Source: an uncultured Deferribacteres bacterium (lineage in GTDB: Bacteria; Zhuqueibacterota; JdFR-76; DREG01). Taken from it: a stretch of 40,152 nucleotides of DNA. Position numbers and translations under genes: made by a program. The notes beneath the pieces were generated by a model that saw only the letters and a list, made by a program, of their open reading frames with translations, ran no database searches and was not told the origin of the DNA. The stretch covers positions 1 through 40,152 of the forward strand of contig CAJVYQ010000050.1 of the NCBI GenBank assembly GCA_913009825.1. The letters run 5' to 3'. Every line of letters starts with the position of its first letter. Position 1 is the stretch's first letter. Shown one piece after another: positions 594 to 39,797 of this stretch.

Positions 594-602
594 CACCTCC
601 AT

Positions 603-652
603 TTTGCGTATTTGTATATTATTGTTGATTTTATAAATACAATATATGCAAA
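603..652. repeat. Imperfect inverted repeat upstream of the transposase
   Basis: The left arm begins TTTGCGTATTTGTA at 603 and the right arm ends ATATATGCAAA at 652; read as reverse complement it begins TTTGCATATATTGTA. The arms flank an AT-rich centre. It lies 10 bases upstream of the transposase start, so it could be an IS terminal repeat, an operator for the transposase promoter, or both. No target-site duplication can be checked because the other end of the element is outside the window. Confidence 0.35.
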
Positions 653-843
653 TGGAAGTTTATTTTTCAACTTTCAATAATCGTGCCGAACACTATTGAT
701 ATTAAACTTAATGGCCTGGCTTACGTCATATAAATTGAGTAACCTATGTTAAGTGTTTTTGCTATTTATGATCTGGTTTCATTTTCTCGGAGTATCAGAG
801 TAACAAACGTTATACTTTGAATTTTAACCCTATGGAGGAATCT

Positions 844-1491: not shown

Positions 1492-1600
1492 CAATAGGAT
1501 CATTCTGAATAGTATCCCGTTACACTCCATATTGGCAAATTATTCTTGGGTTATCCTTTGAAGTCTCTCTGCCATTCGGTATGTCCTGCTGTTATAAGAC

Positions 1601-1629
1601 AAGCTGGATTTAAATTGTCCGGCTTTTTT
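1601..1629 (+). terminator. Rho-independent terminator after the methyltransferase
   Basis: Stem AAGCTGGA / TCCGGCTT (one G-U pair), loop TTTAAATTG, followed by a run of T to 1629. It is about 110 bases downstream of the methyltransferase stop. Confidence 0.65.
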
Positions 1630-1744
1630 CATGTATAAAAACCATGATTATTTCAGCGAATATTAAAATTATAGTACCTGTTTTTGCTAATTTTATTGCT
1701 TTTATTATCTGCGAAACTTGAGCAACGAATTGTTCAACTGCTTC

Positions 1745-1781
1745 AAAAAAAGCCGGGAAGATGTTTTTACCGGCTTTTTTT
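1745..1781. terminator. Strong bidirectional intrinsic terminator
   Basis: A perfect stem AGCCGG (1751-1756) / CCGGCT (1770-1775) is extended by an A-run on the left and a T-run on the right, so it can end transcription in both directions. It insulates the cluster starting at 2063 from upstream transcription. Confidence 0.8.
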
Positions 1782-1941
1782 ATTGCACATTCCGGGTAAT
1801 TTTCCGTACAATTATTTTCCGGAAAGTATAAATTGTTTTAGATTGAGACAATGTATATACTTTTGGCACAATATAAAGAAAATATAAGAGGTTAGCTATT
1901 GTAACTTGCTGATTCTTAGATGGATTTTTGAAAGATGGTTT

Positions 1942-1963
1942 GGTATACATTTTGACATATACC
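1942..1963 (+). promoter_or_regulatory. Candidate operator/promoter upstream of the polysaccharide cluster
   Basis: An inverted repeat GGTATA (1942-1947) / TATACC (1958-1963) encloses TTGACA, a perfect sigma70 -35 hexamer. The -10 is not clear; AT-rich hexamers lie 16-17 bases further on. It is about 100 bases upstream of the first cluster gene. This is a suggestion from pattern only. Confidence 0.3.
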
Positions 1964-2062
1964 TTTTGATATGTAAATGATTAAGAAACCGGATTTATGA
2001 AATTCCGAAGTTCTAAAATTTATAAAAACCATTAAGAATTGATATTGGAAATTGTAGTGCGT

Positions 2063-5000
2063 ATGTTGCAAAAAAAATCAGCAAAAATCGTTTTATTGGT
2101 TAGTGTTTTCGCGATTTCAATTTTTTGTTTAAGATTGTCTTTTGCGCAAATCCCTTTTAGCCGCCACACTGTGGGTTCACACTTCGGCGCTTTTTTTATC
2201 AAAGCTTTTGATTTAAATAAGGATGGCAATGTTGATATTATCTCCGGTCATAATGATCTTGCCTGGTGGAAAAATGACGGCACCGGACATTTTTCAAAGA
2301 AATATATTGATGGAACTGTGTCAGCGCTCTGGTCGATTTATCCTGTTGATGTGGATGGTGACGGTGATATCGATTTATTGATAGCTGATAGCGCTAATCA
2401 TAATATTGTTTGGTATCGGAATGAAAATTTTAACTTTACAAAGATAATTATTGAATCCAATTTTTATAATGCGGAATCCGTTGCGGGAGCTGATTTCGAT
2501 AGAGATGGCGATGTAGATATTGTTGGCCTTACCTGGGCTAATTCAGCTCATCCGGGGATTGTTGCGATATGGAAGAATAACGGTCGTAATCAATTTTCAA
2601 GACAAAATTTAACAACTAATTTTGGCGGCGGCCATAAACTAACTGTTACAGATATTGATAAAGATGGCAATATTGATATTGTAGCCTGTTCCGGAAATGG
2701 TACTAATGGATTATGTTGGTTTGAAAACAATGGCCATGCAAGTTTTATCAAACATAGAATCTTTAGAGGCGGAGTTATTGGTTTCACCGTAATAGATTTT
2801 GATGGAAATGGTACATCGGATATAATTTTTAGCCAACATTCTGCAGGCAAGATTTACTTGGCGAAAAATAATGGGAACGGTTCGTTCTCGAATAAGAATA
2901 TATTTTCAGGACTTAACTGGCCGCATTTCCCCGCTGTTGCCGATTTAAATGGGGACGGAAGATTGGATGTGATTGTCGTGAATAGGGATAGCAATGATAT
3001 GATTTGGTTAGAAAATAATGGAGGATATAATTTTAAATCTCATCCTATTGATTCAATGTCAAAGCCATTTATTGTTGATGTCGCTGATTTTAACAATGAT
3101 CATTCGATCGATATTGTTTCCGGTTCAACCTATGATAAAAAATTATGGTGGTGGGCGAATGAGTCTGTCATTCAACCACAAAAATCATTAGCGGTTATAT
3201 ATCCGAATGGGGGAGAAGAATTGATATCGGGAAGCGACTGTGAGATTCAGTGGCAGTCTCAAGGAAATATAAGCGCTGTCGGCCTAACATATAGTACTAA
3301 TAATGGTACATCCTGGCAATCAATTCAAAATTCAACTACAAATGATGGTCGATATATTTGGCAGGTTCCATTATTGAACTCATCAAAATGTTTCATAAAA
3401 ATAAAAGATACAAATAGCTCCACTTCGGATCGCTCTGATAATATTTTTACAATTATCGATTTAACACCTAAAAAATCGTTAACACTAATTTCTCCGAATG
3501 GCGGAGAGAATTTAGTTTCTGGTGAACAGTTTAATATAACGTGGCAATCTGTAGGAGATATAAATGAAGTTTCTTTATTGTACAGTCTTGATAACGGCGC
3601 TAATTGGCAAATTATTCATTCCTCAACACAAAATGATGGTCAATATCTTTGGAGAATTCCTGATACAAGTTCCCGGCAATGTTTAATTAAAATATCTGAT
3701 GCTAATAATACAAGTATTAAAGATGTCTCTGACGATTTATTCGCCATAAAAAAACCACTACCATTAACTTTGGTGACGCCAAATGGGGGCGAGCGCTGGG
3801 CTACAAATACCAATAGGCTTATCGAGTGGAAAGGAGGAAGTTGGATAAATGAAGTAAGTCTGGAATATTCGTTAAATAACGGGCAGAGTTGGGATATGAT
3901 TACCAGCAATACGGAAAATGATGGAGCTTATCTTTGGACTGTTCCATCGCAGGAGTCTGATAATTGTTTTATCAGAATATCGAACGCTGCAAATTTAAAG
4001 GAAAATGATCTCGGTGATGACTTTTTCTCGATTAAAAAAGTGAACGCAGCCGGTTTTACACTGTATTTCGACGGTTTAACAAGTGCAGCTTTTATTCCTG
4101 ATAATAATCTATTGAGTGGTGGTGAAGGGAAAAGTATTTCTGTAGAAGCCTGGGTTTATCTAACAAAGTTGACCGAGGATCAACCAATTATTGTAAAATT
4201 TCTTAATGGCGGATGGAAAGATTGGGGGCTGCAGGTGCAGGAAGGTGTATTAAGTGTAGCTATCGAAAATAATTATGATAATTGGGAAATAAAAGGAGGA
4301 AATGTTCAACCAGATATCTGGACGCATATTGCATTTACATTCGATAATCAGGCTGATATGGTAAAATTATATATTAATGGTGAATTGGTGAATGAGGCAT
4401 CACTTCTAAAAGATATGCCGGACACGGAGTCTCGAATATACTTGGGACGTCATGCGTATTATAATTACCATGTTACCGGAGATATTGATGAAGTACGAAT
4501 CTGGAATTATGCCAGGAGCGGTACTGAAGTGAAGAAGGATATGCAAGTACTCCAGAGTGGAAGTGAGCCAGGATTGATAGGATATTGGCGTTTTGATGAA
4601 GGTGGAGGTCAGATTTCCTCTGATTTGACTGGGAACGGGAATGATGTCGTTCTGGGTTTATCCCAAAATGTCGATAGTGAAGATCCGATCTGGATGGTAT
4701 CTTACGCACCTTTAGGAAACAAGAACTCTCAGACTATCTCGATCGGAGGGAAAGTTTTATATTATGCCAATGACTTGGCTGTTCCAAATTCCAATGTCCA
4801 TTTAGGCGGTGCAACAACAAAATTTGACACAACAGCAATGGATGGCAATTTTTGTTTTTCTACATTGCCCTCTTATGATGTCTACTTTTTGTCTGTTTTT
4901 AAAGCGGCCAATGAAGATGAAAATTTTGCTGTGACTTCCTTTGATGCTGCACTCACCGCGTTGCATCAATTAGGAATAATACAATTTACAAATTATCAGC

Positions 5001-5917
5001 AAATTGCTGCCGATGTTGATTTAAACGGACAGGAACTTTTCCTCGATGCTGCATTGATAGCCAGGGAAGCAGTTGGTTTACCCAATTTGTCGAACACTTT
5101 TGCAGGCACATGGTATTTTATTCCGGATACATTACGTTTTAACAATCTAGAACATGATACATCAGGAATTAAATTCAGAGGTATCATTTTGGGTGATGTT
5201 GACGGTTCCTGGACGGACAATTCTCGACAAAAAATTTCGCAAAATAAATTTTCAATACAGAATTTTCCTGATAGTGGAATCATCGAAAAAGGGGATACTA
5301 CAATTCTTCAATTTGATCTCCCTGTTTCTGAAAATGTACTCTCTTTTGATTTAAGTATAAATTATACCGGAAATAAAAAATTTCTATTCAGCCGGCTATT
5401 ACCATCGGGATCGGATATGAATATAACTATTTATGATTCAAATGGTTGTTTACGTTTGGGAGGATACGGTACAAAGTATCTGAAACAAGATTATCAGATA
5501 GCGGTTTATTTTATTAGCGGCGAAGCCCAGACAGGTGGAGATTTTGTTATAAATCGATTTTTAATCAATAATCATTCGATTCTAAATAATGTTATAGTGA
5601 ATGTTCAAAAGATGACTTCGGATAATAATATCCCTGAAACGTTCAGATTATATCAAAATTATCCGAACCCCTTCAATTCCGAAACACAAATTGATTATTC
5701 AATCGCACAACGTGGTTATGTGAGCTTAAAGCTTTATGATATTCAGGGTCGTATTATAAACACTTTATTTACCGGCTTAAAAGACGCCGGGCATTATCAG
5801 GTTAACTGGAATGGTAAGGATCAGACCGGTAAACGTGTTTCGGGTGGTGTTTATTTCCTGGTATTAAATTTCAATAATCGTATGAAACGAATTATAAAAA
5901 TAAATTATTTGCCGTAA
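2063..5917 (+). CDS. Secreted FG-GAP / NGGE / LamG / dockerin / cohesin protein with T9SS tail
   Basis: The protein has 1284 residues. A signal peptide ends 'LSFAQ' near residue 29. Residues about 48-367 hold seven FG-GAP (VCBS) Ca-binding repeats of the type 'DxDxDGDxDI'. Three Ig-like domains starting 'PNGGE' follow (about 376-658). A LamG/ConA-like jellyroll is at 663-885, a carboxypeptidase-regulatory-like sandwich at 891-943, and a dockerin-like pair at 956-1007 with the loop 'DVDLNGQELFLD'. A cohesin-like domain is at 1073-1186 and the T9SS domain with 'YQNYPNPFN' at 1187-1284. No catalytic domain is recognised, so it is probably a binding or structural protein on the outer surface. Its N-terminus is paralogous to the gene at 11878. 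The start is uncertain: ATG 2063 gives the best signal peptide, GTG 2057 and TTG 2039 are in frame, and no strong Shine-Dalgarno is seen. First gene of the presumed operon. Confidence 0.85.
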   Translation: MLQKKSAKIVLLVSVFAISIFCLRLSFAQIPFSRHTVGSHFGAFFIKAFDLNKDGNVDIISGHNDLAWWKNDGTGHFSKKYIDGTVSALWSIYPVDVDGDGDIDLLIADSANHNIVWYRNENFNFTKIIIESNFYNAESVAGADFDRDGDVDIVGLTWANSAHPGIVAIWKNNGRNQFSRQNLTTNFGGGHKLTVTDIDKDGNIDIVACSGNGTNGLCWFENNGHASFIKHRIFRGGVIGFTVIDFDGNGTSDIIFSQHSAGKIYLAKNNGNGSFSNKNIFSGLNWPHFPAVADLNGDGRLDVIVVNRDSNDMIWLENNGGYNFKSHPIDSMSKPFIVDVADFNNDHSIDIVSGSTYDKKLWWWANESVIQPQKSLAVIYPNGGEELISGSDCEIQWQSQGNISAVGLTYSTNNGTSWQSIQNSTTNDGRYIWQVPLLNSSKCFIKIKDTNSSTSDRSDNIFTIIDLTPKKSLTLISPNGGENLVSGEQFNITWQSVGDINEVSLLYSLDNGANWQIIHSSTQNDGQYLWRIPDTSSRQCLIKISDANNTSIKDVSDDLFAIKKPLPLTLVTPNGGERWATNTNRLIEWKGGSWINEVSLEYSLNNGQSWDMITSNTENDGAYLWTVPSQESDNCFIRISNAANLKENDLGDDFFSIKKVNAAGFTLYFDGLTSAAFIPDNNLLSGGEGKSISVEAWVYLTKLTEDQPIIVKFLNGGWKDWGLQVQEGVLSVAIENNYDNWEIKGGNVQPDIWTHIAFTFDNQADMVKLYINGELVNEASLLKDMPDTESRIYLGRHAYYNYHVTGDIDEVRIWNYARSGTEVKKDMQVLQSGSEPGLIGYWRFDEGGGQISSDLTGNGNDVVLGLSQNVDSEDPIWMVSYAPLGNKNSQTISIGGKVLYYANDLAVPNSNVHLGGATTKFDTTAMDGNFCFSTLPSYDVYFLSVFKAANEDENFAVTSFDAALTALHQLGIIQFTNYQQIAADVDLNGQELFLDAALIAREAVGLPNLSNTFAGTWYFIPDTLRFNNLEHDTSGIKFRGIILGDVDGSWTDNSRQKISQNKFSIQNFPDSGIIEKGDTTILQFDLPVSENVLSFDLSINYTGNKKFLFSRLLPSGSDMNITIYDSNGCLRLGGYGTKYLKQDYQIAVYFISGEAQTGGDFVINRFLINNHSILNNVIVNVQKMTSDNNIPETFRLYQNYPNPFNSETQIDYSIAQRGYVSLKLYDIQGRIINTLFTGLKDAGHYQVNWNGKDQTGKRVSGGVYFLVLNFNNRMKRIIKINYLP

Positions 5918-5972
5918 TGACTAAAAAGAAAATTTGTTCTATTTGATATTATCTCAACATAAGATTTCTTTT

Positions 5973-8243
5973 ATGACTGTGAAGAAAATGTCAAAAATAG
6001 CTGTTGCATTGATCTTGGTGAATTATCTGAGTATTGCATTCGGGCTAAATGCAAACAACTTAAAATTTAATGTAACAGATTCTGTGATTTTTGTTAGTGC
6101 GGATGCGCGCGGGAAAAATGACGGAAGCTCGTGGAAAAATGCATATACAAAGATTCAAAGAGCTATTAACGCTGCATCAAATACAAAAAAAACTATCTGG
6201 GTGGCAAAAGGAAAATATGATAAAAAGATAACCATTAATAAAAATGTTTCTCTTTATGGCGGATTCGCCGGGTTTGAAGATAGTTTTCAGGATCGAGATT
6301 TCATAAAAAATGAAACAATAATTAATGGGAAAAAACAGTGGCGTTGTTTATTAATTAAGAAAGATTGTACGGTTGATGGGTTTATAGTTGAAGACGGGCA
6401 AGTTAATTTAGATATAAACAATTATGGAGACCTCTTTGACAGAGCAGGAGGAGGAATTTTGGTAGTCAATTGTAATGCTATTATACGAAATAACATTTTT
6501 CGTTTTAATGCCGCTTGTTGGGGTGGCGCTATTTTTGTTAATGGTTCTCCTGCTAAGTGTCTTATTGAACATAATGTCATTACTCGGAATCATGGGACAG
6601 TTTGTGCGGGAGGGATTGAATTAGATGGGTCAGATTCAATAGTTAGATTTAATACTATCGTTGATAATATCGGTTTTGGTCTTGAAATTCCCACACATTT
6701 TCCTGCAGTACTTGGAGATTTTTATAATAATATTGTTGTTGGGAATATCACTAACGGTCATCCCAGATTGAAAAATTCGTCAAAAGCTTATGATGTTTGG
6801 GCGTTGGCCAGGAACTGCACTAATTATAGTTTTGTTGGAAAAATTTGGAAAAAAGGTAAGCTATGGGATTCTCCTTGGGCGAAAAATAATCTTTATGGCG
6901 ATTATGATAATTTAGACGTTGGTTTTATTGATAGAAAAAATATGAATTATCATTTGACTGAAAACTCCCCATGTATCGGTGTAGGGAAACCGAATTCGCA
7001 TGGTTCATCTACAGACATTGGTGCTTATCCTTACATCAAAAAGAAATCCAATATATCAATATCAGGAAGTGTCAGATATTATTTCAATAGTAGTTTCATA
7101 AAAAATGCCATGATTACCATGATTGATGAAAATTCTAATTCACTACAAAGCAAGATGAGTAACAACAACGGTGATTTTTCCTTTTCTTTATTTCTTGATA
7201 ATAGCTCCTGTTTGTTGATTCCATTTAAACAAACGGACAAAGGTATGGGGCATTCTATCACGATGTTCGATGCAGCACTTACAGCCAGATTTGCCATTGG
7301 ACTTCAACAATTATCAACAATACAACAAATTGCTGCTGATGTGGAAGGAAATGACAATGTTTTATTTTATGATGCGGCCTTGATTGCCCGGGAAGCCGTA
7401 GGTTTGCCCAATTTGTCGAACACTTTTGCAGGTTCATGGTATTTTATTCCTGATACATTACGTTTGAACTTTTTATCACACGATACATCAGGAATTCAGT
7501 TCACAGGTATTATTCTTGGGGATGTTGACGGTTCATGGTCAAATAATATGCTACAAAACTATTCTCCTGGTAAATTATCAATACAGGGTTTTCTTGACAG
7601 GGGTGTCATTGAGAATGGTGATACAACATTCCTTCTCTTTGATCTGCCTGCTGCGGAGAATATACTCTCCTTTGATTTAAGTATCAATTATCCTAACAAT
7701 AAGAAATTTCTATCCTTCAAAATGATCCCGTTGGATTCGGATATGAATATAAGTAGTCATGATTCGGATGGATGTCTGCGTCTGGGAGGGTATGGTACCA
7801 AGTATCTGAAGACAGATTATCAGATAGCTGTTTATTTTTTAAATAGTGGTCCGCAAACGGATGGGAATTTTGCCGTCAAAAGATTTTTCATCAACAATCA
7901 TTCAATTTTCAATAATGTTATTGTTAATGTTTATAAAATGATTTTGGATAATAATATCCCTGAAATGTTCAGATTATATCAAAATTATCCGAACCCCTTC
8001 AATTCCGCAACACAAATTGATTATTCAATTACACAACGTGGCTATGTGAGCTTGACGCTCTATGATATTCAGGGACGTGTAATTAACACATTATTTTCCG
8101 GCTTAAAAGGCGCCGGTCATTATCAGGTTAACTGGAATGGTAAGGATCAGACCGGTAAACGTGTTTCGGGTGGTGTTTATTTCCTGGTATTAAATTTCAA
8201 TAATCGTATGAAACAAATTATAAAAATAAATTATTTGCCGTAA
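5973..8243 (+). CDS. Secreted right-handed parallel beta-helix protein with dockerin, cohesin and T9SS tail
   Basis: The protein has 756 residues and a signal peptide ending 'LSIAFG' near residue 25. Residues about 36-355 match the parallel beta-helix type that opens with 'DGSSWKNAYTKIQ', 'IWVAKGKY' and 'VSLYGGFAGFE', and then shows PbH1-like rungs rich in Asn and Ile. This fold is common among pectin and glycosaminoglycan lyases, but I see no diagnostic catalytic residues, so lyase activity is not claimed. The regulatory-like sandwich (360-410), dockerin-like pair ('DVEGNDNVLFYD', 428-481), cohesin-like domain (548-659) and T9SS tail (661-756) follow. The tail is almost identical in DNA to that of the preceding gene. 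It starts 55 bases after that gene. ATG 5973 was chosen for the signal peptide; ATG 5988 is possible and neither has a clear Shine-Dalgarno. Confidence 0.82.
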   Translation: MTVKKMSKIAVALILVNYLSIAFGLNANNLKFNVTDSVIFVSADARGKNDGSSWKNAYTKIQRAINAASNTKKTIWVAKGKYDKKITINKNVSLYGGFAGFEDSFQDRDFIKNETIINGKKQWRCLLIKKDCTVDGFIVEDGQVNLDINNYGDLFDRAGGGILVVNCNAIIRNNIFRFNAACWGGAIFVNGSPAKCLIEHNVITRNHGTVCAGGIELDGSDSIVRFNTIVDNIGFGLEIPTHFPAVLGDFYNNIVVGNITNGHPRLKNSSKAYDVWALARNCTNYSFVGKIWKKGKLWDSPWAKNNLYGDYDNLDVGFIDRKNMNYHLTENSPCIGVGKPNSHGSSTDIGAYPYIKKKSNISISGSVRYYFNSSFIKNAMITMIDENSNSLQSKMSNNNGDFSFSLFLDNSSCLLIPFKQTDKGMGHSITMFDAALTARFAIGLQQLSTIQQIAADVEGNDNVLFYDAALIAREAVGLPNLSNTFAGSWYFIPDTLRLNFLSHDTSGIQFTGIILGDVDGSWSNNMLQNYSPGKLSIQGFLDRGVIENGDTTFLLFDLPAAENILSFDLSINYPNNKKFLSFKMIPLDSDMNISSHDSDGCLRLGGYGTKYLKTDYQIAVYFLNSGPQTDGNFAVKRFFINNHSIFNNVIVNVYKMILDNNIPEMFRLYQNYPNPFNSATQIDYSITQRGYVSLTLYDIQGRVINTLFSGLKGAGHYQVNWNGKDQTGKRVSGGVYFLVLNFNNRMKQIIKINYLP

Positions 8244-8293
8244 TAATTTTGTTCAATATTACTGCTTTAAAAGAGCACAAAGTAAGGTGTCAC

Positions 8294-9934
8294 ATGAGAA
8301 GATTTGTAAAATTGTTGATTTTTATTTTTATCCTCGTTTTTTTCAACACGGCATGTGGAATGGATAAATCGTCAGTATCGGCCACAGTAAATTTTGATAT
8401 TTCCTCAAATTATTATTTTTGGGTAAGGCTGAAAACGGATGAAAAACAACATCGACTTCAGTTGTATATTAATAATAATTTGATAAATGAGGTGATGATA
8501 AGTAAAATTACACGTTATCAATGGATATTGATCGCAAGTAACGTTCCAATTCAGTCAGGGTCTCACCATTTTGAAATCACCATAGATAAACCTGTCGTAT
8601 TACTTGATAAGTTTGAGATTAGCTTAGATGTCGGTTACTATCCAAACGGATTAGGCAGCTCTGATGAAGTGAAAACTCCGAGTCAACCTGAGAAAATACT
8701 TGAGATTCCGTTGCAGGGGAAAGGCGGCTATGTCATGTTCGCTGATTTTGACAACGATCATTCCATCGACTATTTAATTACCGGCGAACAATTTGTTTCT
8801 GTCTACACGAATGCGGGTAATTTGCTTTGGGAGAAAAATTTTTCCGGCAAGCAACATCCGAATTGCGGCTGGGGATTTTTCTTTCGACCCTATGATATAG
8901 ATCATGATGGAAATGTGGAAGCGATAGGCCCGATCGATGTAAATGACTCCCTGTTTTTGGCAGTTTTGAAAGGCCAGACTGGTGCCATAAAAGCTAAATA
9001 TTTTCTTCCGGATTATCCCTCGAATTTTGGTTACGAGAGCAGTCAAATTGCTAATTTTGACGGCGATCATTATTCAAAATTTATCACTGTTAAATTATCT
9101 GATTCTGTTTTTCCTTATCAAAATTTTAAGTTTTTTGCATTTAAATATCAAAACAAAGAAATATTACCATTCTGGACTTTTGAGCGAAGCAATGCAGGTA
9201 AAGGTATTTGTCACCGTCCTGTTGTTTATGATATTGATCAGGATGGCAAAGATGAAGCGTTATTAGGACACTGGGCATTGGATGAAAATGGTAAAGTACT
9301 ATGGGAAAAGGTGCCAACATTTTTTGACCAATGGCGGCATGTTGATTCTATCAGGCCTGCTGATATTTTACCTGACCATCAGGGAATTGAAATTATGATT
9401 TCCAGCGGCTTTATTATGCTTGATCCTGATGGAAATGTAATATGGAGAAAGAATGTAGGGTACGATGTTCAATCGATTGCGATTGAAGATTTTAGAAGAG
9501 ATATTCCCGGGTTGGAAATTTTAACCGCAGTTCAAGCGCCGGATAATGATGAATATCTATTGACAGCTACAGGCGAGATTTTATGGAGCTATAACGGCCC
9601 TTCTGAATATGACGCCAGTTTTGAAACAACGCCCATTCAATGGATCGGTGATTCACAGAAAGAAGTTATTGAACAACGCTATGGAAGGGGAAGGGTGATT
9701 AGCCTTTATGATGAATATGGTAAAATAATTGGCGATATAGATCCTTCATTTCAATATGGAGAAGTAAATTACAAAATTGCAGATGTGTTCGGCGATTTTA
9801 GAGAAGAGATTGTTTTTTTTAATAGTAATCATCTTATTGTATATACAAATGGAGCAGTTAACCAATATGTTGGAGAGAGTCCCTGGAAAAATGAAGAATA
9901 TCAAAAAAAACAATACAACTGGGTCTATTATTAG
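8294..9934 (+). CDS. Exported FG-GAP beta-propeller protein, rhamnogalacturonan-lyase-like, possible lipoprotein
   Basis: The protein has 546 residues. The N-terminus has a hydrophobic segment ending 'FFNTACG', a weak lipobox, so it may be a lipoprotein. Residues about 25-128 form a beta-sandwich with 'YYFWVRLK' and 'LLDKFEISLDVGYYPNG', related to the carbohydrate-binding modules in the larger proteins of this window. The rest (about 135-546) is an FG-GAP propeller with 'DFDNDHSIDY', 'DIDHDGNVEA', 'DIDQDGKDEA' and a closing blade 'GDFREEIVF...YTN'. That ending resembles the propellers of rhamnogalacturonan lyases, although the catalytic residues were not verified. Alone in the cluster it lacks the dockerin, cohesin and T9SS cassette. 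ATG 8294 follows AAGG at 8284-8287. Its 3' end overlaps the next gene by 44 bases, which suggests translational coupling. Confidence 0.75.
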   Translation: MRRFVKLLIFIFILVFFNTACGMDKSSVSATVNFDISSNYYFWVRLKTDEKQHRLQLYINNNLINEVMISKITRYQWILIASNVPIQSGSHHFEITIDKPVVLLDKFEISLDVGYYPNGLGSSDEVKTPSQPEKILEIPLQGKGGYVMFADFDNDHSIDYLITGEQFVSVYTNAGNLLWEKNFSGKQHPNCGWGFFFRPYDIDHDGNVEAIGPIDVNDSLFLAVLKGQTGAIKAKYFLPDYPSNFGYESSQIANFDGDHYSKFITVKLSDSVFPYQNFKFFAFKYQNKEILPFWTFERSNAGKGICHRPVVYDIDQDGKDEALLGHWALDENGKVLWEKVPTFFDQWRHVDSIRPADILPDHQGIEIMISSGFIMLDPDGNVIWRKNVGYDVQSIAIEDFRRDIPGLEILTAVQAPDNDEYLLTATGEILWSYNGPSEYDASFETTPIQWIGDSQKEVIEQRYGRGRVISLYDEYGKIIGDIDPSFQYGEVNYKIADVFGDFREEIVFFNSNHLIVYTNGAVNQYVGESPWKNEEYQKKQYNWVYY

Positions 9935-11858: not shown

Positions 11859-11877
11859 ACGGATAGGTGATTTAGTG

Positions 11878-15924: not shown

Positions 15925-15941
15925 TATTGAGGATGATGGTT

Positions 15942-18900: not shown

Positions 18901-21900
18901 GCGACGGCGGCAATCAAAGCCATAATATAACAGTGCCTAACTCTGATAAAACGTATACCGCTAATTTTAAGACACAATACGAATTAATCACTCAAGTAGA
19001 TCCTTCCGGAGGCGGTTCAATCAGCCGGAGTCCTGATGCAACCTGGTATGACGCAAACCAGCCGGTGAAATTGACGGCAAATGCCGGTTCCGGTTTTCAG
19101 TTTGTTGATTGGTCAGGAGATTTGAGCGGGTTAACCAATCCGGAGAATATAACTTTGAGTTCTGCAAAGACTGTAACGGCAAATTTCGGTGAAAGTGCAA
19201 ATTTTACTATTAAGACAAATCCTGCAAATTTATCGATTACGGTTGATGAACAGAATTATACTGCTCCGAAAACTTTTACCTGGTTGACGAAATCAACGCA
19301 TACAATTGCTACAAGTTCACCACAAAATCAGAATAATGGCTCCAGACTTGTGTGGGACAGTTGGGACGATAATGGAGCAATTTCCCACCAGATTACAGTA
19401 CAAAAATCAAAAACAAGCTACACCGCAAATTTTAAAACCCAACATCAATTAACGACATCTGTTAAGCCATCCGGAGCAGGGAGTGTAAGTCAGGATAAAT
19501 CAGGAGAATGGTTTGACGAGGGAAGTTCTGTTCAATTTACTGCTCATGCAAACCAGGGTTATGATTTTGCCAACTGGAGTAATGGCGCCAGTGGCACAGA
19601 AAATCCGAAAACAATTGTAATAAATAGTGCATTAAATATTACGGCAAATTTCACCGCCTGGCCGAAAATTACGGTGACTTCTTCGCCATCTGGACAGAAA
19701 GTGTTAGTAGATAATCAGGAATATACATCTCCTAAAGTTTTTAGCTGGCAGCCGGGTAGCAAACATTCCGTAAATGTAAATTCACCTCAAAACGGTGGTT
19801 CCGGAGTGAGGTATGTTTATAAAAGTTGGAGTGATAATGACGCCCAATCTCATCAAATTAGCACGCCTGCAAATGCAGCTACTTTTACTGCTAATTTTAA
19901 AACCCGGTATCGTTTAACAACTGGTGTAAATCCTGGCGGTTCGGGGAATGTCAGTTTGGCTCCATCGGGAGAATGGTTCGATGAAGGAACAAATGTTAAA
20001 TTAACAGAAACTCCTGACTTGGGCTATGATTTTAATCATTGGAGTGACGGAGCTTCCGGAAATCAAAATCCCAAAACAATCACGATGAATAGCACTAAAA
20101 ATGTTATTGCCAATTTTACTGCCTGGCCGGAAATTACAATAACAACTTCTCCTTCTGGATTAAAAATAGTAGTTGATGGCAATGAATTCACTTCCCCGAA
20201 AAAATTCACCTGGCAGCCTAACAGTAATCACACATTAAAGATTAACTCTCCTCAAAATGGTAATAACGGTTCCCGGTATGTTTATGTGAATTGGAATGAT
20301 GGTGGAAGTCAGGAACACCAAATAACTACTCCCTCTTCTGCAACTATTTACAAGGCAAATTTTAAGACACAATATCAATTAACCGTTAATGTGACTCCTA
20401 CTGGTTCTGGAAGTATAGATGTGAATCCGTCAGGAGATTGGTTTGACAGTGGAGCTCAGGTTAATCTTACGGCGAATGCAAGTTCAAATTATGGTTTTCT
20501 CAATTGGAGCGGCGATTATAGCGGCAGTTCTGCATCAGTCGCCATTACGATGAATTCTTCAAAAAATATCACTGCTAACTTTGGCCGGTTACGAAACATA
20601 ACCATTAAAACGAATCCGGCTAACCAGATAATCAAAGTGGATAATAAGACTTATTCGTATTCCAAAACATTCCAATGGATCGAAAACACTTCCCACTCTA
20701 TTTCTGTTGATAATTTCATAAATGTGAACAGTGGCAAACGATATCTCTGGAAGAACTGGAGTAATGGAAAATCAAGAAGCCAAAATTATTCTGTCCCTGG
20801 TTCGGATCAAACAGTAACGGCTTATTTTGATACACAATATTTCCTCACTACTTCTGTTTCTCCTTCCTCTGGGGGGAGTGTTGCTCCAAGTTCTGGCTGG
20901 TATAAACAAGGTGAAAGTGTTAAAATCCAGGCAAATCCGATCAAAGATTGGGAGTTTAAAAATTGGTCGGAGGATATTTCCGGCTCATCCAATCCGGCTC
21001 AAATTACAATGAACAGTGCAAAGTCGGTTATGGCCAACTTCCAAATTAGTGAAGTGATTGTTACAGTGACCACGAATCCGCCAGGTTATGAAATTATGGT
21101 TGATGGAAAAAAATATACTTCACCGCGCCGATTTAACTGGATTATTGGTTATAGGCATCGTATTGAAGCGCATGAATCGTATGATGTAAATGCCGGTGAA
21201 CAACTCTGGTGGGAAAAATGGAACGATAATGGAAACCGGTCACATTCTATCACTGTTTCCAGAAATGTTACTGCCTATTCCGCAACTTTAAGAAATAAAT
21301 ATTTTTTAACCCTTAATTCCCAACATGGTTCTGTTTCCGGAGCAGGTTGGTATTGGGAAGGCAGCGAAGCTCAGATATTTGTCGATTCCCCTGTTTATGA
21401 TAGGGGCACAACCCGTTATATTTTTACCTCCTGGTCCGGAGATAATTCCGGTTCAAATAAATCTGGCACAATTCAAATGAATAGTCCTCATTCAGCTACG
21501 GCAAATTGGCGAACAGAGTATTATCTGGATATTAGCTCGAATATATCAAATAATACTGATTCTTTTCAAAGCATTGAGGCGGAGAATGGATCAATTGTGA
21601 GTCCGTGCCTTATTGGAAGTGAGATAAATGCTTCCAATAGTGCCTATACTTTTTCTCCTCAGCGACACTCCGGCGCGGTTAATTTAAATTTCTCCATAAA
21701 ACAGGAAGGCGATTTTTGGATATGGGGCCGGGTATTTGCACCCTCCAATATTGAGGACTCTTTTTGGTTGTTGAAGGATAATAACCAGGATACCATTTTA
21801 TGGGATATTGGCGGCATTTATTCTGAGTGGAAATGGCTTGAGGTGACTGATAGAGCGAAGGGCATAGAAACATTTCATTTAACTCCCGGTGAACATCAAT

Positions 21901-23765
21901 TGCATGTTTTTACAAGAGAAAGAAATAGCCGGCTTGATAAAATTGTCATTACCAATAGTAAGAATTTTTCGCCCTCAGGAGTTGCCGGTGACAATAATGC
22001 TTCAAATTTTCTTGGTAATTTATTTGGCAGCGGATGGTACCCAGCCGGCCAAAAAGTAAATTTGGGGGGGGATCATTTGATACAGGTTGATGCAGTGAAT
22101 CGTTATACTTTTAAAAATTGGAGCATTGATTATTCCGGGAATCAAAATCCCGCTTCTGTGACGATGAATGGTCCAAAATCCGTGATAGCACAATGGAACT
22201 GGCAGCATTATGTTTCGATCGCCGTCGATCCGGAAACAGCAGGTGATGTAAATCCTCCTTCGCCGGGTGGCTGGTATTCGCATAATCATCTTCTTCAATT
22301 AATAGCAACACCAGCTCCGGATTTTATTTTTACAAATTGGTCCGGAAGTATTACCGATACTTCATCATCTATTGAACTTAACGTGAATGAGCCAAAACAA
22401 GTTACGGCTCATTTTGGAGAACCTAATCACCCGCCTTCTATTGATAGTTTACGGGTATCCCCTCAGTCAGTTGTGAAAGGCAGTGAGATTCAGGTTTTCT
22501 ATCATTTTACAGATCAGGATAATGACTCTGAAGGGAATTCAATTGTCCGGTGGTTAAAAAACGGATCCATTGTGACGGAACTTGACGGTAATCGGATTGT
22601 CCCCGGAGATTCCATCAATATAGGAGATGTGTGGCAGGTTACGGTTCAACCTTACGATGGGCAAGATTATGGAAGGTTCTATTATTCTGCCCCGGTTTTT
22701 GTGCTGCCAACAGCGTTACGGAATGAAATGACGTTCTCCTGGGCAGGAAATGATACAACTGTTCAATTGAAGGAACAATCTCTCGGATTAACTATAACGA
22801 TTCATAAACAAGGTTCGCAATTAGGTAAAATAACTTCAACTTCCAATTCATCAAATATACCAGCAATGCTATCTTTGGTTAATATTCCCGGTTCGGAACA
22901 ATTCTATTTCAATAATACCATTCGATCCTATTGGCTATTGTATACAACGCTGCAAAATTTTTCAATTGATTTAGCACTAAATTATTCTGATTCTTTGGTA
23001 AACCAAGCTGGTATATCAGATGAACGCAATCTTAATCTTGGCTGGTCGGATAATCTTGGCGATGAGTGGTTTTACTCTACGAATGTACACATTGATACTG
23101 CCAAAAATCTTATTTCTGTCCAAGGTTTAACCCATCTTTCTTTGTGGGCCATTGGGCAAAAACCATTCTCAAAATTTTTTCCGGTTGAATTGATGTCTTT
23201 TACTGCCGATTTGACCGATGGCAACAAAATAGAATTAAACTGGAAAACCGCTTCGGAGACGGACAATTTGGGTTTTCAAATTGAAAGAAAATCATCCAAT
23301 GAAACTTTTCAAAAAATTGGATTTATTAAAGGAAATGGAACAACGAATATTCATCATGACTATCGTTTCCTTGATGATGGGAAAGAACCGGGAGAATACT
23401 ATTACCGTTTAAAGCAGATTAATATTGACGGGACTTTTTCTTATAGTGATGAAATCCGGGTTATTGTTACAGTTCCGATCGTGTTTCACTTATCCCAAAA
23501 TTATCCGAATCCATTTAATAACTCAACTAAAATTACATTCACAATTCCGGCAAAATATTCAGGGGAGAATGTCACTCTGAAAATTTATGATACCGTAGGC
23601 AGACAGGTTAATCAGGTTCAATTTATTTCTGTTTCTCCCGGTGGTCTCAGCTTTATCTGGGATGGCAAAGATAAATTTGGCCGGCTGTTAAGCTCGGGTG
23701 TATATTTCTACCAGATAAATTTGAAGGATTTAAGTCTGAAGAAAAAAATGATCTTAATGAAATAA
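15942..23765 (+). CDS. Giant secreted repeat protein with N-terminal cohesin, InlB/PEGA-type repeats, nested CBM and T9SS tail (candidate scaffold)
   Basis: The protein has 2607 residues. The signal peptide ends 'NAGYAQ' (about residue 24). A cohesin-like domain occupies about 26-146. From about 155 to 1863 there are eleven tandem two-part units of about 155 residues. Part A (PEGA-like) has 'ITITSSP...VDVDG..Y.TPK.FQW' and ends 'YTANFKTQ'. Part B (InlB B-repeat / bacterial repeat) has 'LTT.V.PSGGG', 'WYD.G..V.L.A.A' and 'F..WSG..SG', ending 'TVTANF'. A further B repeat is interrupted by a carbohydrate-binding module at about 1870-2013, one more B repeat follows, then Ig-like, FN3-like ('PVELMSF...LNWKTASETDNLGFQIERK') and T9SS ('QNYPNPFN') domains. 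No dockerin and no catalytic domain are seen. ATG 15942 has GAGG at 15929-15932. It is probably an outer-surface stalk or scaffold. Confidence 0.83.
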   Translation: MKNLLYLCIFLISSFLLINAGYAQISITVPDQTANKGETINIPVNTSQISTQDAVISYQFDVSFNPQVLKALGASKDGTISSSASMFLANPDNNAGKMSVGAFFTTEFTGQGVVAYLQFEVIGDPAATSQVNLNNFIFNGGTPSASVNNGTFTVNYVSIDVNTSPANLQFKFDNTTYSAPKSFKVSPNSNHSLDVPDPQTDGADKRYVWKNWNDGKSKSHSVSAPGSGSSAFTANFDTQYRLTVGTNPSGAGTVSKNPNQEWIKTGTSVSLTATANSGYNFSNWTGSKSGSNNPLSFTMNSAVSVTANFVAWPTITIKTNPSNQEVIIDGSTYTAPQSRQWKPGTQHSIGVNSPISVNGGKRYVFNSWSDGGNQSHDITVPNSDKTYTANFKTQYKLTTQVDPSGGGAISKSPDATWYDANQSVSLTANANSGFQFVDWSEDLSGSTNHHDLMMNSAKTVTANFGEEVTVTVNTNPQGLKVNVDGYEYTAPHQFNWLTNTNHDLVTDQIQNEANGSRYNWTSWSDGKTRSHTILASKGTTGYTANFTQQFYLTTSSNPAAGGQVTPGSGWYDSGENVQVKANANSNYQFINWSGGLSGNETPTTVQMSQAKTVTANFTRLRNITITSSPAGKNVDVDETNYQTPKTFQWLEGSTHTINVSQSPQSGGTGIRHVYDNWSDGGNQSHDITVPNSDKTYTANFKTQYKLTTQVDPSGGGTIGKSPDATWYDANKSVELTANAGSGFQFVDWSGDLSGLTNPQNLTMNAAKTVTANFGEEVTVTVNTNPQGLKINVDGYKYTAPHQFNWLTNTSHDLATDQIQNEANGSRYNWTSWSDGKARSHTIMASKSSTSYTASFVKQFYLTTTSNPPSGGDVTPGSGWHDSGENVQVKANANSNYQFIDWSGSLSGSNNPATVQVSQAKTVTANFTRLRNITITSSPSGKNVDVDGNSYQTPKSFQWLEGSTHALNVSQSPQSGGTGIRHVYDNWSDGGNQSHNITVPNSDKTYTANFKTQYELITQVDPSGGGSISRSPDATWYDANQPVKLTANAGSGFQFVDWSGDLSGLTNPENITLSSAKTVTANFGESANFTIKTNPANLSITVDEQNYTAPKTFTWLTKSTHTIATSSPQNQNNGSRLVWDSWDDNGAISHQITVQKSKTSYTANFKTQHQLTTSVKPSGAGSVSQDKSGEWFDEGSSVQFTAHANQGYDFANWSNGASGTENPKTIVINSALNITANFTAWPKITVTSSPSGQKVLVDNQEYTSPKVFSWQPGSKHSVNVNSPQNGGSGVRYVYKSWSDNDAQSHQISTPANAATFTANFKTRYRLTTGVNPGGSGNVSLAPSGEWFDEGTNVKLTETPDLGYDFNHWSDGASGNQNPKTITMNSTKNVIANFTAWPEITITTSPSGLKIVVDGNEFTSPKKFTWQPNSNHTLKINSPQNGNNGSRYVYVNWNDGGSQEHQITTPSSATIYKANFKTQYQLTVNVTPTGSGSIDVNPSGDWFDSGAQVNLTANASSNYGFLNWSGDYSGSSASVAITMNSSKNITANFGRLRNITIKTNPANQIIKVDNKTYSYSKTFQWIENTSHSISVDNFINVNSGKRYLWKNWSNGKSRSQNYSVPGSDQTVTAYFDTQYFLTTSVSPSSGGSVAPSSGWYKQGESVKIQANPIKDWEFKNWSEDISGSSNPAQITMNSAKSVMANFQISEVIVTVTTNPPGYEIMVDGKKYTSPRRFNWIIGYRHRIEAHESYDVNAGEQLWWEKWNDNGNRSHSITVSRNVTAYSATLRNKYFLTLNSQHGSVSGAGWYWEGSEAQIFVDSPVYDRGTTRYIFTSWSGDNSGSNKSGTIQMNSPHSATANWRTEYYLDISSNISNNTDSFQSIEAENGSIVSPCLIGSEINASNSAYTFSPQRHSGAVNLNFSIKQEGDFWIWGRVFAPSNIEDSFWLLKDNNQDTILWDIGGIYSEWKWLEVTDRAKGIETFHLTPGEHQLHVFTRERNSRLDKIVITNSKNFSPSGVAGDNNASNFLGNLFGSGWYPAGQKVNLGGDHLIQVDAVNRYTFKNWSIDYSGNQNPASVTMNGPKSVIAQWNWQHYVSIAVDPETAGDVNPPSPGGWYSHNHLLQLIATPAPDFIFTNWSGSITDTSSSIELNVNEPKQVTAHFGEPNHPPSIDSLRVSPQSVVKGSEIQVFYHFTDQDNDSEGNSIVRWLKNGSIVTELDGNRIVPGDSINIGDVWQVTVQPYDGQDYGRFYYSAPVFVLPTALRNEMTFSWAGNDTTVQLKEQSLGLTITIHKQGSQLGKITSTSNSSNIPAMLSLVNIPGSEQFYFNNTIRSYWLLYTTLQNFSIDLALNYSDSLVNQAGISDERNLNLGWSDNLGDEWFYSTNVHIDTAKNLISVQGLTHLSLWAIGQKPFSKFFPVELMSFTADLTDGNKIELNWKTASETDNLGFQIERKSSNETFQKIGFIKGNGTTNIHHDYRFLDDGKEPGEYYYRLKQINIDGTFSYSDEIRVIVTVPIVFHLSQNYPNPFNNSTKITFTIPAKYSGENVTLKIYDTVGRQVNQVQFISVSPGGLSFIWDGKDKFGRLLSSGVYFYQINLKDLSLKKKMILMK
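17044..17158 (+). repeat. 115-bp exact direct repeat, copy 1
   Basis: Bases 17044-17158 recur without a change at 17971-18085, 927 bases downstream, spanning the junction of a part A and a part B repeat. A third, diverged version begins near 18898 and differs mainly at synonymous sites. Confidence 0.95.
17343..19196 (+). repeat. Two copies of a 927-bp higher-order repeat (units 3-4 and 5-6)
   Basis: Within the giant gene, units 3+4 (17343-18269) and 5+6 (18270-19196) form a two-unit super-repeat of exactly 927 bases (309 codons). Diagnostic peptides such as 'DGYxYTAPHQFNWLTNT' and 'SQSPQSGGTGIRHVYDNWSD' recur at this spacing. Unit 2 resembles units 4 and 6, so the pattern extends half a period upstream. 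Confidence 0.9.
17971..18085 (+). repeat. 115-bp exact direct repeat, copy 2
   Basis: Identical to 17044-17158. The absence of any synonymous difference points to recent unequal exchange or gene conversion, because other repeat units in the gene have diverged. Confidence 0.95.
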
Positions 23766-23771
23766 GGAAAC

Positions 23772-26423
23772 ATGAGAAAGCTGAAATTAATACGGACTGT
23801 TTTTTCAATAGTATTTAGTCTTCAGGCTTTTTCCTTATCTTTTGCCCAAATCAAAATTATGCCTTTAGGAGATTCGATAACGAGAGGCACAATGAATCTT
23901 TCTCCGACTGAAAATGATTCGGGTTACAGAGGATTTTTATTCAGGTTGCTGGATAAGGAAATAGGACGATCAAATTTTGATTTTGTCGGCTCTCTATCTA
24001 ATGGCTTATTTGCAGATACTGATCATGAAGGGCATGGCGGGTGGCGGGCAGATCAGATCGATAAAAATATCTCAGCTTGGCTAAAGCATTCCCATCCTGA
24101 TTATATTTTGCTTCATATTGGCACGAATGATGTCAGTAATGATGAATCACATAGTTCGACAATTTCGGAAATAGAAAGTATTATTGATAAGATTTATAAT
24201 TATAATCCCCATATTCATATTTTTTTAGCCAGTATTATTCCTCGGAATGACGCCAAGGATTCTCGCATGAAGGATCTGAACGTCTTAATAAAGGATCTTT
24301 ATTATTATAAAAAGGAATCAGGGTATAAAATTTATTATGTAGGTCAGGATGAGTCATTCAGGGAAAATCCAAATTTTGCCATTGCTTATTTTTCGGATGT
24401 TGTTCATCCGAATATCCGGGGCTACAGACTTATGGCTGTAAATTGGTATAATAAACTGATTGAAGTGATACGCAACGACATTCCACGTACATATTCTATC
24501 AGCAAGTTTCAGGGAGACGCTCAATCGGGACAGGTTAATCATCTTCTTTATGAAAATGTATCCGTAAAAATTTTGGATTCCAACTCCAGAACGGCTCAAA
24601 ATATTCCCGTTCAATTCAGGGTAATTAGCGGAGATGGGACAATCCAGGAATCTGTTCATCCGGCTCATATCTTTTTAGAAGCAGAAGCAGCGCAAACTTC
24701 ATTCCCATCCCAAATATATTCAGATTCCCACGCTTCTAATAATGCTTATGTCAGCTCACCGGAACGTAAAAAGGGCAATTTTTCGCTAACGGTCAATTTA
24801 GAACAAGAGGGTAATTACCAATTTTGGGGCAGAGTATTCGGCCCTTCCGGGGAGGAAGATTCTTTTTATTTATTAGTAGACAACAAACCGGACACGATAT
24901 TATGGGACATCGGAGCCAAACATAATGAATGGTATTGGCTTCCTGTAAGAGACCGATATAATGGATTGGTGAATTTTTTTCTTCGTGCCGGAGAGCATTC
25001 TTTTCATTTTATTACCAGAGAAGCTAATGCCAGATTGGATAAAATCGCAATTTCCACTGATACAAATTTCTCTCCAATTGGAATAGACGGATTTGGCACC
25101 ATTCTAACAGATAAACATGGCATTGCCAGTGCCGGCTGGCTCTTGGGACCGAATGTCGGCGAACAAAGGATAGAAGTTTCCTCATCTTTTGCTCCGGGGA
25201 AGAAAATTAATTTTCAGGCCTATGCAACATCACCGGCACAGGGAAATATTCATATTGCCGGCTCCGTTCTTTATTATGATAAATTATTTCCTGTGCCTGA
25301 TGTTGTAGTTCGATTTGACAGTACCTCATCAGATACAACGGATCAAAACGGAAACTTTTCTTTTGGTCAACTTAAAAAAGGAGCCGATTATAAAATTTGG
25401 CCGGAAACCGATATCCCGATCGTTGACGCCCGGAATATCCTGTCTTTTTACGATGCAGCCTTAATTGCCAGAGGTGCGTTGGGGTTTGACGAACTCGGCA
25501 TCGACCAGACCCTGGCAGCCGATGTGAACGGAGACGGCCGGGTTTCAATGTATGATGCAGCTTTGGTTGCCAGATTTGTTATTGGCCTGGATGATAATTC
25601 CTCTACTTTTGTGGGAAAATGGATGTTTACTCCGCAGGAACGGGCTTATGCCCAATTGGATACTTCAGTTGAAAATGTTCAATTTATTGGCATTATGCGG
25701 GGGGATTTACATGGAGGGTGGAATCAAAGGAAACTATCAAAATCAAACACCCCTTCTTTGGCTACGGCGGCTAAAAGCTTTTACAATTTTTCGGGAGATA
25801 CTTTATCGTTGGAAATTCCTTTTCGGGCTGAATCACCAATATACTCATTTTACACAGAATTAAACTATGATGCAGAAAATCTTACCTGGATTCCCGGCGA
25901 TTATGGCAAGACTATCACCCGTTTGTTTACAATATATGAACAATCACAAAATGGGGTTCTCAAACTGGGGGGGATTTATCCGGCCGGCATTCAGGAATCC
26001 GGCGGGTTGCAGTTGAAGTTTCTCTGTTCTCATGACGGCTCGAATGCGCTAAAGTCATTTAAGATTACAATTAAGTTTAATGATGGAACAACACAAGAGA
26101 CTTCCGTTGCTCCGGATGTTAAAAGGATAGATGCAGATGAAAAATTTACTGTTGATCCTGTATACCCCAATCCGTTTAATTTGGAAACAACCATTCGTTT
26201 TTATTTGCCGGAACCTGGAAAAGTTTACTTGCGTTTGTTTAATATTTTAGGACAGGAAGTATGGGCCCGTGAGGACTATTATCAATCCCCGGGACAAAAA
26301 ACGGTCCTATTTGATGGGAAAAACTTAGAAAGGAATACCCTCGAGAGTGGCAGGTATTATTTACGGATAACGAGCGATATAAGTAATTCGGCGATTGTTC
26401 AAAAGATAGTGATTGTTAAATGA
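23772..26423 (+). CDS. Secreted CE3-type SGNH esterase with nested CBM, dockerin, cohesin and T9SS tail
   Basis: The protein has 883 residues. The signal peptide ends 'LSFAQ' at residue 26. The SGNH hydrolase (27-228) has block I 'PLGDSITRG' with nucleophile Ser35, 'DHEGHGGWRADQI', block III 'HIGTND' with Asn119, and block V 'SDVVHPN' with Asp209 and His212. The 'DHEGHGGW' segment is typical of CE3 acetylxylan esterases, so deacetylation of a plant polysaccharide is the likely reaction. Next comes a Big_1-like Ig domain split by a carbohydrate-binding module (about 298-437). A regulatory-like sandwich (492-546), a dockerin-like pair with a canonical loop 'DVNGDGRVSMYD' (557-610), a cohesin-like domain (673-777) and a T9SS tail with 'VYPNPFN' (789-883) follow. 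ATG 23772 lies six bases after the previous stop and has AAGGAA upstream. Last gene of the tight run. Confidence 0.88.
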   Translation: MRKLKLIRTVFSIVFSLQAFSLSFAQIKIMPLGDSITRGTMNLSPTENDSGYRGFLFRLLDKEIGRSNFDFVGSLSNGLFADTDHEGHGGWRADQIDKNISAWLKHSHPDYILLHIGTNDVSNDESHSSTISEIESIIDKIYNYNPHIHIFLASIIPRNDAKDSRMKDLNVLIKDLYYYKKESGYKIYYVGQDESFRENPNFAIAYFSDVVHPNIRGYRLMAVNWYNKLIEVIRNDIPRTYSISKFQGDAQSGQVNHLLYENVSVKILDSNSRTAQNIPVQFRVISGDGTIQESVHPAHIFLEAEAAQTSFPSQIYSDSHASNNAYVSSPERKKGNFSLTVNLEQEGNYQFWGRVFGPSGEEDSFYLLVDNKPDTILWDIGAKHNEWYWLPVRDRYNGLVNFFLRAGEHSFHFITREANARLDKIAISTDTNFSPIGIDGFGTILTDKHGIASAGWLLGPNVGEQRIEVSSSFAPGKKINFQAYATSPAQGNIHIAGSVLYYDKLFPVPDVVVRFDSTSSDTTDQNGNFSFGQLKKGADYKIWPETDIPIVDARNILSFYDAALIARGALGFDELGIDQTLAADVNGDGRVSMYDAALVARFVIGLDDNSSTFVGKWMFTPQERAYAQLDTSVENVQFIGIMRGDLHGGWNQRKLSKSNTPSLATAAKSFYNFSGDTLSLEIPFRAESPIYSFYTELNYDAENLTWIPGDYGKTITRLFTIYEQSQNGVLKLGGIYPAGIQESGGLQLKFLCSHDGSNALKSFKITIKFNDGTTQETSVAPDVKRIDADEKFTVDPVYPNPFNLETTIRFYLPEPGKVYLRLFNILGQEVWAREDYYQSPGQKTVLFDGKNLERNTLESGRYYLRITSDISNSAIVQKIVIVK

Positions 26424-29532: not shown

Positions 29533-29665
29533 CGCTTATCCCAGTCATAAATCCCTCTTTATTATCTTTATTTTTCTCATACTTATGTCGATAAATAAAT
29601 GGTATCATATTTGTATTGTATAACCTGGAGAATCCAATCACTGGAAATAAAGATTGAGGTACATC

Positions 29666-39589: not shown

Positions 39590-39797
39590 GGTTACTCCTG
39601 TGCCTAAAAATTGTTTTAATAATGACAATTTGTCAATATATTATTGCATTGATAAATTTGTTTTTCAGCAAAGTTTTTCAATCAATTGATGTGTAGGGCG
39701 ACGAATCTCGTCATCCTGCATTGTGTCATCTATTCTATAATCACATTTTCTGTAACAATAACAATTAGTCCTGTAACTGCGAAATTTGAGTATATAA

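Follow-up and report, generated by a model that had tools for sequence, protein, structure and literature searches.

A dockerin with an apparently split calcium loop is joined to a cohesin in T9SS surface proteins and may form an intramolecular clasp

Five proteins encoded in the window (the whole stretch of 40,152 nucleotides that was analysed) end in an X module, a dockerin, a cohesin and a T9SS sorting domain. Alignment of these proteins with their relatives shows that in sequence the first calcium loop of the dockerin, hereafter DOC*, is split in a manner resembling circular permutation, and that the domain is joined to the cohesin that follows it. The best reading of this arrangement is an intramolecular clasp between DOC* and cohesin in T9SS surface proteins, to which we give an even chance of being right. 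More tentatively, and with the chances slightly against it, we propose that a circularly permuted dockerin, essentially always accompanied by a cohesin in the same chain, is a self-contained lock in at least four bacterial phyla rather than a plug for a scaffold. Cohesin-dockerin pairs serve as the model case for the modular assembly of proteins and as parts of designer complexes. If our reading is true, a dockerin with a calcium loop closed from both ends and its own cohesin represents a new use of the pair. It would help to explain dockerin-like proteins in genomes that lack a matching scaffoldin, caution against the label 'cellulosomal' for every genome with dockerins and cohesins, and offer a ready-made intramolecular lock.

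The genes lie in a same-strand row spanning 2063-28261 of the window, which is contig C50 in a genome of 5.1 Mb. Its features are listed below, where COH stands for cohesin and split-loop dockerin for the predicted DOC*.

2063-5917, + strand: FG-GAP/LamG surface protein (protein 1), C-terminal X-DOC*-COH-T9SS
4736-4906, + strand: X module of protein 1, a CarboxypepD_reg/CnaB-like sandwich
4928-5212, + strand: split-loop dockerin of protein 1; AVTSFD at the start is the second half of loop 1, and loop 2, within these limits, is DVDLNGQELFLD
5192-5212, + strand: GDVDGSW of protein 1, the first half of loop 1
5255-5593, + strand: cohesin of protein 1
5645-5914, + strand: T9SS type A sorting domain of protein 1 (TIGR04183, 29.0 bits, cut-off 23)
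5973-8243, + strand: beta-helix-like surface protein (protein 2), C-terminal X-DOC*-COH-T9SS
7254-7538, + strand: split-loop dockerin of protein 2, SITMFD to GDVDGSW (7518-7538)
7581-7919, + strand: cohesin of protein 2
8249-9934, + strand: RGL11-like lipoprotein within the gene row (PF21348, 8.6e-18)
9891-11858, + strand: CBM96 (DNRLRE-type) surface protein (protein 3), C-terminal X-DOC*-COH-T9SS
10878-11165, + strand: split-loop dockerin of protein 3, TILTYD to GDVHGGW (11145-11165)
11199-11543, + strand: cohesin of protein 3 (PF00963, 7.2e-6)
11878-15924, + strand: FG-GAP and GH88/105 enzyme (protein 4; PF07470, 1.1e-72), C-terminal X-DOC*-COH-T9SS
14929-15213, + strand: split-loop dockerin of protein 4, TILTYD to GDVDFSW (15193-15213)
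15259-15600, + strand: cohesin of protein 4
15927-23765, + strand: 2612-aa protein with an N-terminal cohesin (about 16017-16364; 2.1e-10), PEGA and a T9SS tail
23772-26423, + strand: GDSL esterase (protein 5), C-terminal X-DOC*-COH-T9SS; modelled with AlphaFold
25437-25721, + strand: split-loop dockerin of protein 5, ILSFYD at 25437 and GDLHGGW at 25701-25721; loop 2, within these limits, is DVNGDGRVSMYD
25758-26108, + strand: cohesin of protein 5 (cohesin fold by Foldseek)
26148-26420, + strand: T9SS type A sorting domain of protein 5
26618-28261, + strand: 547-aa protein with a cohesin (about 27326-27559; 6.5e-4, below cut-off), then a T9SS tail

By profile scan, the RGL11-like lipoprotein (8249-9934) lacks dockerin, cohesin and T9SS tail, and the 2612-aa and 547-aa cohesin proteins lack a dockerin. 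In the 2612-aa protein (15927-23765), 14 InlB-B-type (Flg_new_2) repeats alternate with PEGA-like units behind the N-terminal cohesin.

The original prediction, made from the window alone, was that five proteins share this order of modules behind differing N-termini, and both points hold for all five: a shared X-dockerin-cohesin profile, built from the five and one protein of contig C16, matches each of them (E 2.5e-133 to 2.7e-116) at pairwise identities of 29-59%, and the N-terminal parts are FG-GAP/LamG, beta-helix-like, CBM96, FG-GAP with GH88/105, and GDSL esterase. Dockerin_1 (PF00404) scores above cut-off in the protein starting at 23772 (E 2.4e-6) and weakly in the GH88/105 protein, and Cohesin (PF00963) above cut-off in the protein starting at 9891 (E 7.2e-6). 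Taken alone, PF00963 gives no match in some cassette members, window protein 5 included. The remaining dockerins and cohesins of the window are identified because their relatives match these profiles: at E<0.01, Dockerin_1 recognises 71 and Cohesin 43 of the 106 aligned cassette members (best Cohesin E 1.3e-12). PF00963 has matches in 1/14 genomes of the control set. Against PDB sequences, the cassette profile finds the dockerins 4uyp_B (1.9e-9) and 1ohz_B (2.9e-6) and the Archaeoglobus fulgidus cohesin 2xdh (6.3e-9, or 1.2e-8 with a cohesin-only profile). A Foldseek search of the whole cassette against the PDB was dominated by tandem Ig-like proteins and uninformative, and the AlphaFold model of DOC* and cohesin was used instead; its top PDB folds are mostly cohesins (5nrm_A, E 5e-6), and the nearest also include a few sandwiches of unrelated proteins, for example YcnI. 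The C-terminal sandwich of the window proteins is thus a cohesin by profiles and by predicted structure, and the prediction escapes its own refutation, a C-terminal sandwich resembling no cohesin. That dockerin and cohesin homologues share a polypeptide exported as T9SS cargo is also supported: TIGR04183 is above cut-off in the 4/4 window cassette proteins scanned (of five) and matches 103/106 cassette members, while the genome encodes SprA (SprA_N, E 2.2e-38) and has 83 Por_Secre_tail matches. The prediction had covered neither the split loop nor the two window proteins with a cohesin only, nor an eight-cohesin protein encoded elsewhere in the genome.

The dockerin had been described as a pair of dockerin-like repeats. 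One of them is indeed a complete F-hand, the second, with a normal loop DV[DNST]x[DN]Gx[VI][ST]x[YF]D; the loop of the other is split in sequence. Loop 1 is absent from its usual place, and helix 1 opens with x[IV][TS]x[YF]D, which corresponds to loop positions 7-12. Positions 1-6, as GDV[DSHN]G[NSG]W, are found after a C-terminal beta-hairpin with W.F.P. Residues are numbered along the 396-aa segment encoded at 25233-26420 of the window. Over all stretches of the tandem alignment, residues 158-163 best match positions 1-6 of loop 2 (0.42, next -0.30) and residues 69-74 its positions 7-12 (0.83, next 0.07). Calcium-ligand positions are conserved in both loops, as the column frequencies in 104 cassettes indicate (D74 in 96/104, G157 in 103/104, D/N/E158 in 104/104). 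A pattern scan of about 146 dockerins found the displaced half only in 123, an intact loop 1 only in 12 and both in none; the 11 missed by the pattern each fall into one class or the other by eye. Judged by these patterns, intact loop and displaced half are mutually exclusive in all of the roughly 146 dockerins examined, and none of the displaced-half cassette members has the two contiguous calcium loops of a type I dockerin. We infer that DOC* is circularly permuted and that the cut lies within the calcium loop. An attempt to place the displaced half by its covariation with one F-hand gave equal values for the first and the second (mean z 1.47 and 1.49), so it is not placed by covariation. 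Ruminococcus bromii Amy16 was considered as a dockerin that already has the extension (9qf9, matched residues 63-179) and rejected, as its loop 1 is contiguous; Amy16 and Amy12 dockerins are both among the sequence matches.

The association with a cohesin is nearly constant. A cohesin was detected directly downstream of 124 of the 130 DOC* modules; of the other six, three are followed by a cohesin-like sandwich recognised by eye, one has an upstream cohesin and two lie at a contig end. This inseparability is partly favoured by sampling because all queries held dockerin or dockerin-cohesin sequence. Since dockerin and cohesin almost always co-occur, each protein probably locks onto itself and not onto a separate scaffold. 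Cassette matches were found in 53 of the 82 phylum genomes that were searched, with up to 18 per genome, counts that include related single modules. The phylum is most likely KSB1; the cassette is present in a named relative, candidate division KSB1 bacterium BS750m-G10, and, outside the phylum, the DOC*-cohesin pair occurs in Desulfonema magnum and a Desulfobacterales bacterium (Desulfobacterota) and in Clostridia; in Bacteroidota the pair has diverged sandwiches and was recognised by eye only. The cassette almost always immediately precedes the sorting domain, and in most members 83-138 aa separate its end from the stop. The N-terminal parts of 73 relatives include FG-GAP repeats (about 18), a further cohesin (15) and GDSL esterases (13), besides CBM96, PKD, C25 and C1 peptidases, CotH and others. 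The further cohesin before the cassette in 15/73 relatives makes some intermolecular docking in the phylum likely. An ordinary-type pair also exists in the genome of the window, where a 942-aa protein (C16:11128-13953) has an intact dockerin, then a cohesin and a T9SS tail.

The AlphaFold model of four domains of protein 5 reached a pLDDT of 89.9 and a pTM of 0.83, and that of DOC* and cohesin alone 86.3 and 0.85. By our own estimate, two equal domains without fixed relation should give a pTM near 0.55, and therefore AlphaFold proposes one arrangement. The pTM thus suggests a fixed relation between the predicted domains and is silent on which faces touch. In the mechanism that we propose, the displaced GDVxGxW half would fold back and complete calcium site 1, and DOC* would bind its own cohesin by the classical face, helices 1 and 3 of the dockerin facing strands 3, 6 and 8 of the cohesin. 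This would give an intramolecular clasp that depends on calcium and forms a stiff, folded base, with the surface anchor on one side and the catalytic or binding part on the other. The clasp could also open and pair with another copy by domain swap.

We analysed the fit between the two domains by covariation in 104 cassettes from 31 genomes, against a null in which rows were shuffled only within a genome. The top-20 coupling z was 7.3 for DOC-COH and 5.4 for EXT-COH, with 12.8 for the positive control DOC-EXT, values in which species history is controlled by the shuffle and paralogue history is not. Values were lower for X-COH (1.7), COH-CTD (1.1) and DOC-CTD (1.7), and any pair with X or CTD stayed at or below 2.3. 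Pairs above z 4 are enriched between recognition positions and cohesin faces (27/450 vs 32/4472 elsewhere; p 1e-13, computed on pairs that are not independent), also when columns 247/248 are removed (p 9e-9). The recognition positions are 10, 11, 14, 15, 17, 18, 21 and 22 of each dockerin repeat, as chosen from the literature, and the faces are predicted strands 3, 5, 6 and 8; the enrichment is not blind because the limits of the strands were chosen once the strongest pairs had been seen. The strongest covariation links Ala at dockerin position 17 with an aromatic residue at cohesin position 248, and Leu with Ala 248. A small residue at 248 occurs only with Leu/Met-type residues at both position-17 sites (22/22), and otherwise 248 is aromatic or large. 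Position 248, in strand 6, presumably aligns near Ala85 of C. thermocellum cohesin 2. The fit between positions 17 and 248 is mostly at the clade level because it involves about three changes on the tree, and with only three independent pairs the test has no power. Contrasts on 52 independent pairs gave a z of 2.3 for volume in a test of little power, blind even to the DOC-EXT positive control. These alignments show a fit of dockerin to cohesin at the level of subfamilies, short of repeated independent coevolution. Such self-matching would be compatible with an intramolecular bond and with a bond between copies alike.

The original prediction had offered two mechanisms, an intramolecular clasp and chains between different proteins, and the former fits better. 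In the latter, DOC* pairs with a cohesin on another copy or on a paralogue and links surface proteins into chains or networks without a scaffoldin, which we regard as possible though doubtful. By the code of positions 17 and 248, every window dockerin could meet every window cohesin, because Ala is at position 17 in both repeats of all five window dockerins (5/5) and position 248 is Tyr in four of the five window cassette cohesins, Ile in one, and Phe and Tyr in the two cohesin-only proteins. R. bromii Amy4, which has a dockerin and a cohesin, has moreover been proposed to be able to self-aggregate (PMC5814915). Several observations nevertheless lead us to prefer the clasp: DOC* is almost never seen without its own cohesin, covariation ties dockerin and cohesin of the same chain above same-genome paralogue shuffles, AlphaFold gives one fixed intramolecular arrangement (pTM 0.85), and an S8 protease of Petroclostridium X23 ends in COH-X-DOC*-COH, followed by a separate canonical dockerin. 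In the last case an ordinary dockerin may have been added where outward docking is wanted. A tethered cohesin, present at high local concentration, should also outcompete others.

A classical cellulosome-like design, in which the dockerins bind the cohesin-only window proteins or a scaffoldin and the adjoining cohesin serves otherwise, is improbable. The genome does encode, on another contig than the window, what a cellulosome needs in this respect, a non-catalytic scaffoldin with several cohesins: a scaffoldin-like protein of 2239 aa that has a T9SS tail and eight cohesins at even spacing (C16:58688-65404). Its C-terminus is strongly matched in about 13 of the 82 genomes of the phylum, including 7/16 genomes with at least five cassette matches vs 6/66 others (p 0.003), and similar scaffoldin-like proteins were inferred for Cloacimonadota (PMC8542988). 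It belongs to a conserved four-gene block (C16:53037-66360) whose order is kept in several genomes. The block encodes a predicted outer-membrane protein of about 482 aa that has no family match by profile scan, a 1406-aa protein with CnaB repeats, an intact dockerin, a cohesin-like domain and a T9SS tail, the eight-cohesin protein and a PorV-like protein. The dockerin of the scaffoldin's neighbour of about 1400 aa has an intact loop 1 and lacks the hairpin, and Leu and Phe at its position 17 are kept in most genomes read. These large residues speak for a different class from the window dockerins, and at position 248 the scaffoldin cohesins have mostly polar or small residues such as Ser, Gly, Thr and Glu, against Tyr or Ile in the window. 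Furthermore, 9/16 cassette-rich genomes have no detected scaffoldin, which led us to reject it as an obligatory partner of the cassette. We read the scaffoldin and its neighbour's dockerin as a second specificity class by sequence, apart from the window proteins; the eight-cohesin protein probably serves this other class and not the window enzymes. It is a testable scaffoldin candidate from a Gram-negative, T9SS-bearing uncultured phylum. A protein at C28:17149-21777 and similar ones of 2195-2841 aa in many genomes of the phylum combine the N-terminal region of the neighbour with the C-terminal region of the scaffoldin, and a fusion of this kind may have given rise to the pair of separate genes.

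Very improbable, finally, is an inert stalk in which both folds are a rigid spacer without calcium-dependent binding: the rigid high-confidence AlphaFold arrangement and the position of the cassette, nearly always just before the sorting domain, agree with it, but calcium-ligand positions are kept in both loops and covariation links the recognition faces.

Single chains that combine a dockerin with a cohesin are already known from R. bromii Amy4 (PMC5814915) and from ANME archaea (PMC9012536). Amy4 (Sca1), an extracellular enzyme of the amylosome (PMC5814915), resembles the window proteins in having both domains on one enzyme, but is from a Gram-positive, lacks a T9SS tail, and its system has cohesin-dockerin pairs that were measured by ELISA. 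ANME archaea encode proteins in which several cohesins accompany a single dockerin (PMC9012536). A. fulgidus provides the nearest solved cohesin by sequence to those of the window (2xdh), but these non-cellulosomal proteins of Archaeoglobus fulgidus and ANME have no T9SS, and we found no split-loop dockerin described there. Candidatus Stygibacter (Cloacimonadota) has dockerin enzymes and a large, scaffoldin-like protein with cohesins, whose C-terminal domain serves surface attachment (PMC8542988). The latter resembles the eight-cohesin protein, whereas the enzymes differ from the window proteins in having a dockerin only, with no cohesin in the same chain (PMC8542988). X-Doc complexes are among our PDB and Foldseek matches. 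In clostridial scaffoldins such as CipA, an Ig-like X module directly precedes the dockerin (X-Doc). These differ from the window cassette in their contiguous loop 1 and in having the partner cohesin on another protein. In Clostridium thermocellum dDoc_0689, two modules are packed in one chain and the first dockerin has an intramolecular clasp (review PMC12484212); that clasp lies within the dockerin, whereas the partner proposed for the window proteins is a cohesin. In the literature within reach, we found no description of a natural circularly permuted or split-loop dockerin, nor of a dockerin of this kind that is paired almost constantly with a neighbouring cohesin; this does not prove novelty in either case. 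The same literature yielded no paper on KSB1 with cohesins or dockerins.

The substrate had been predicted to be an acidic, acetylated plant or algal polysaccharide. This is plausible, and the enzymes point to rhamnogalacturonan I because an RGL11-like protein, a GH88/105 and a GDSL esterase are encoded side by side. The substrate is thus, judging from the enzymes, probably acetylated rhamnogalacturonan I. This suggests that the window enzymes act on pectin, unlike a cellulosome, which acts on cellulose. A TonB-dependent receptor with a CarboxypepD_reg domain (37085-39628, - strand) adjoins this pectin-type gene row. Also in the window, at 29654-36949, is a GDSL-type protein of 2431 aa that carries a T9SS tail and numerous Big_1-like Ig repeats, without dockerin or cohesin. 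The G+C content of the window is about 35% up to 16 kb and 38-51% beyond (1-16000 vs 16001-40152), with cassette genes in both parts.
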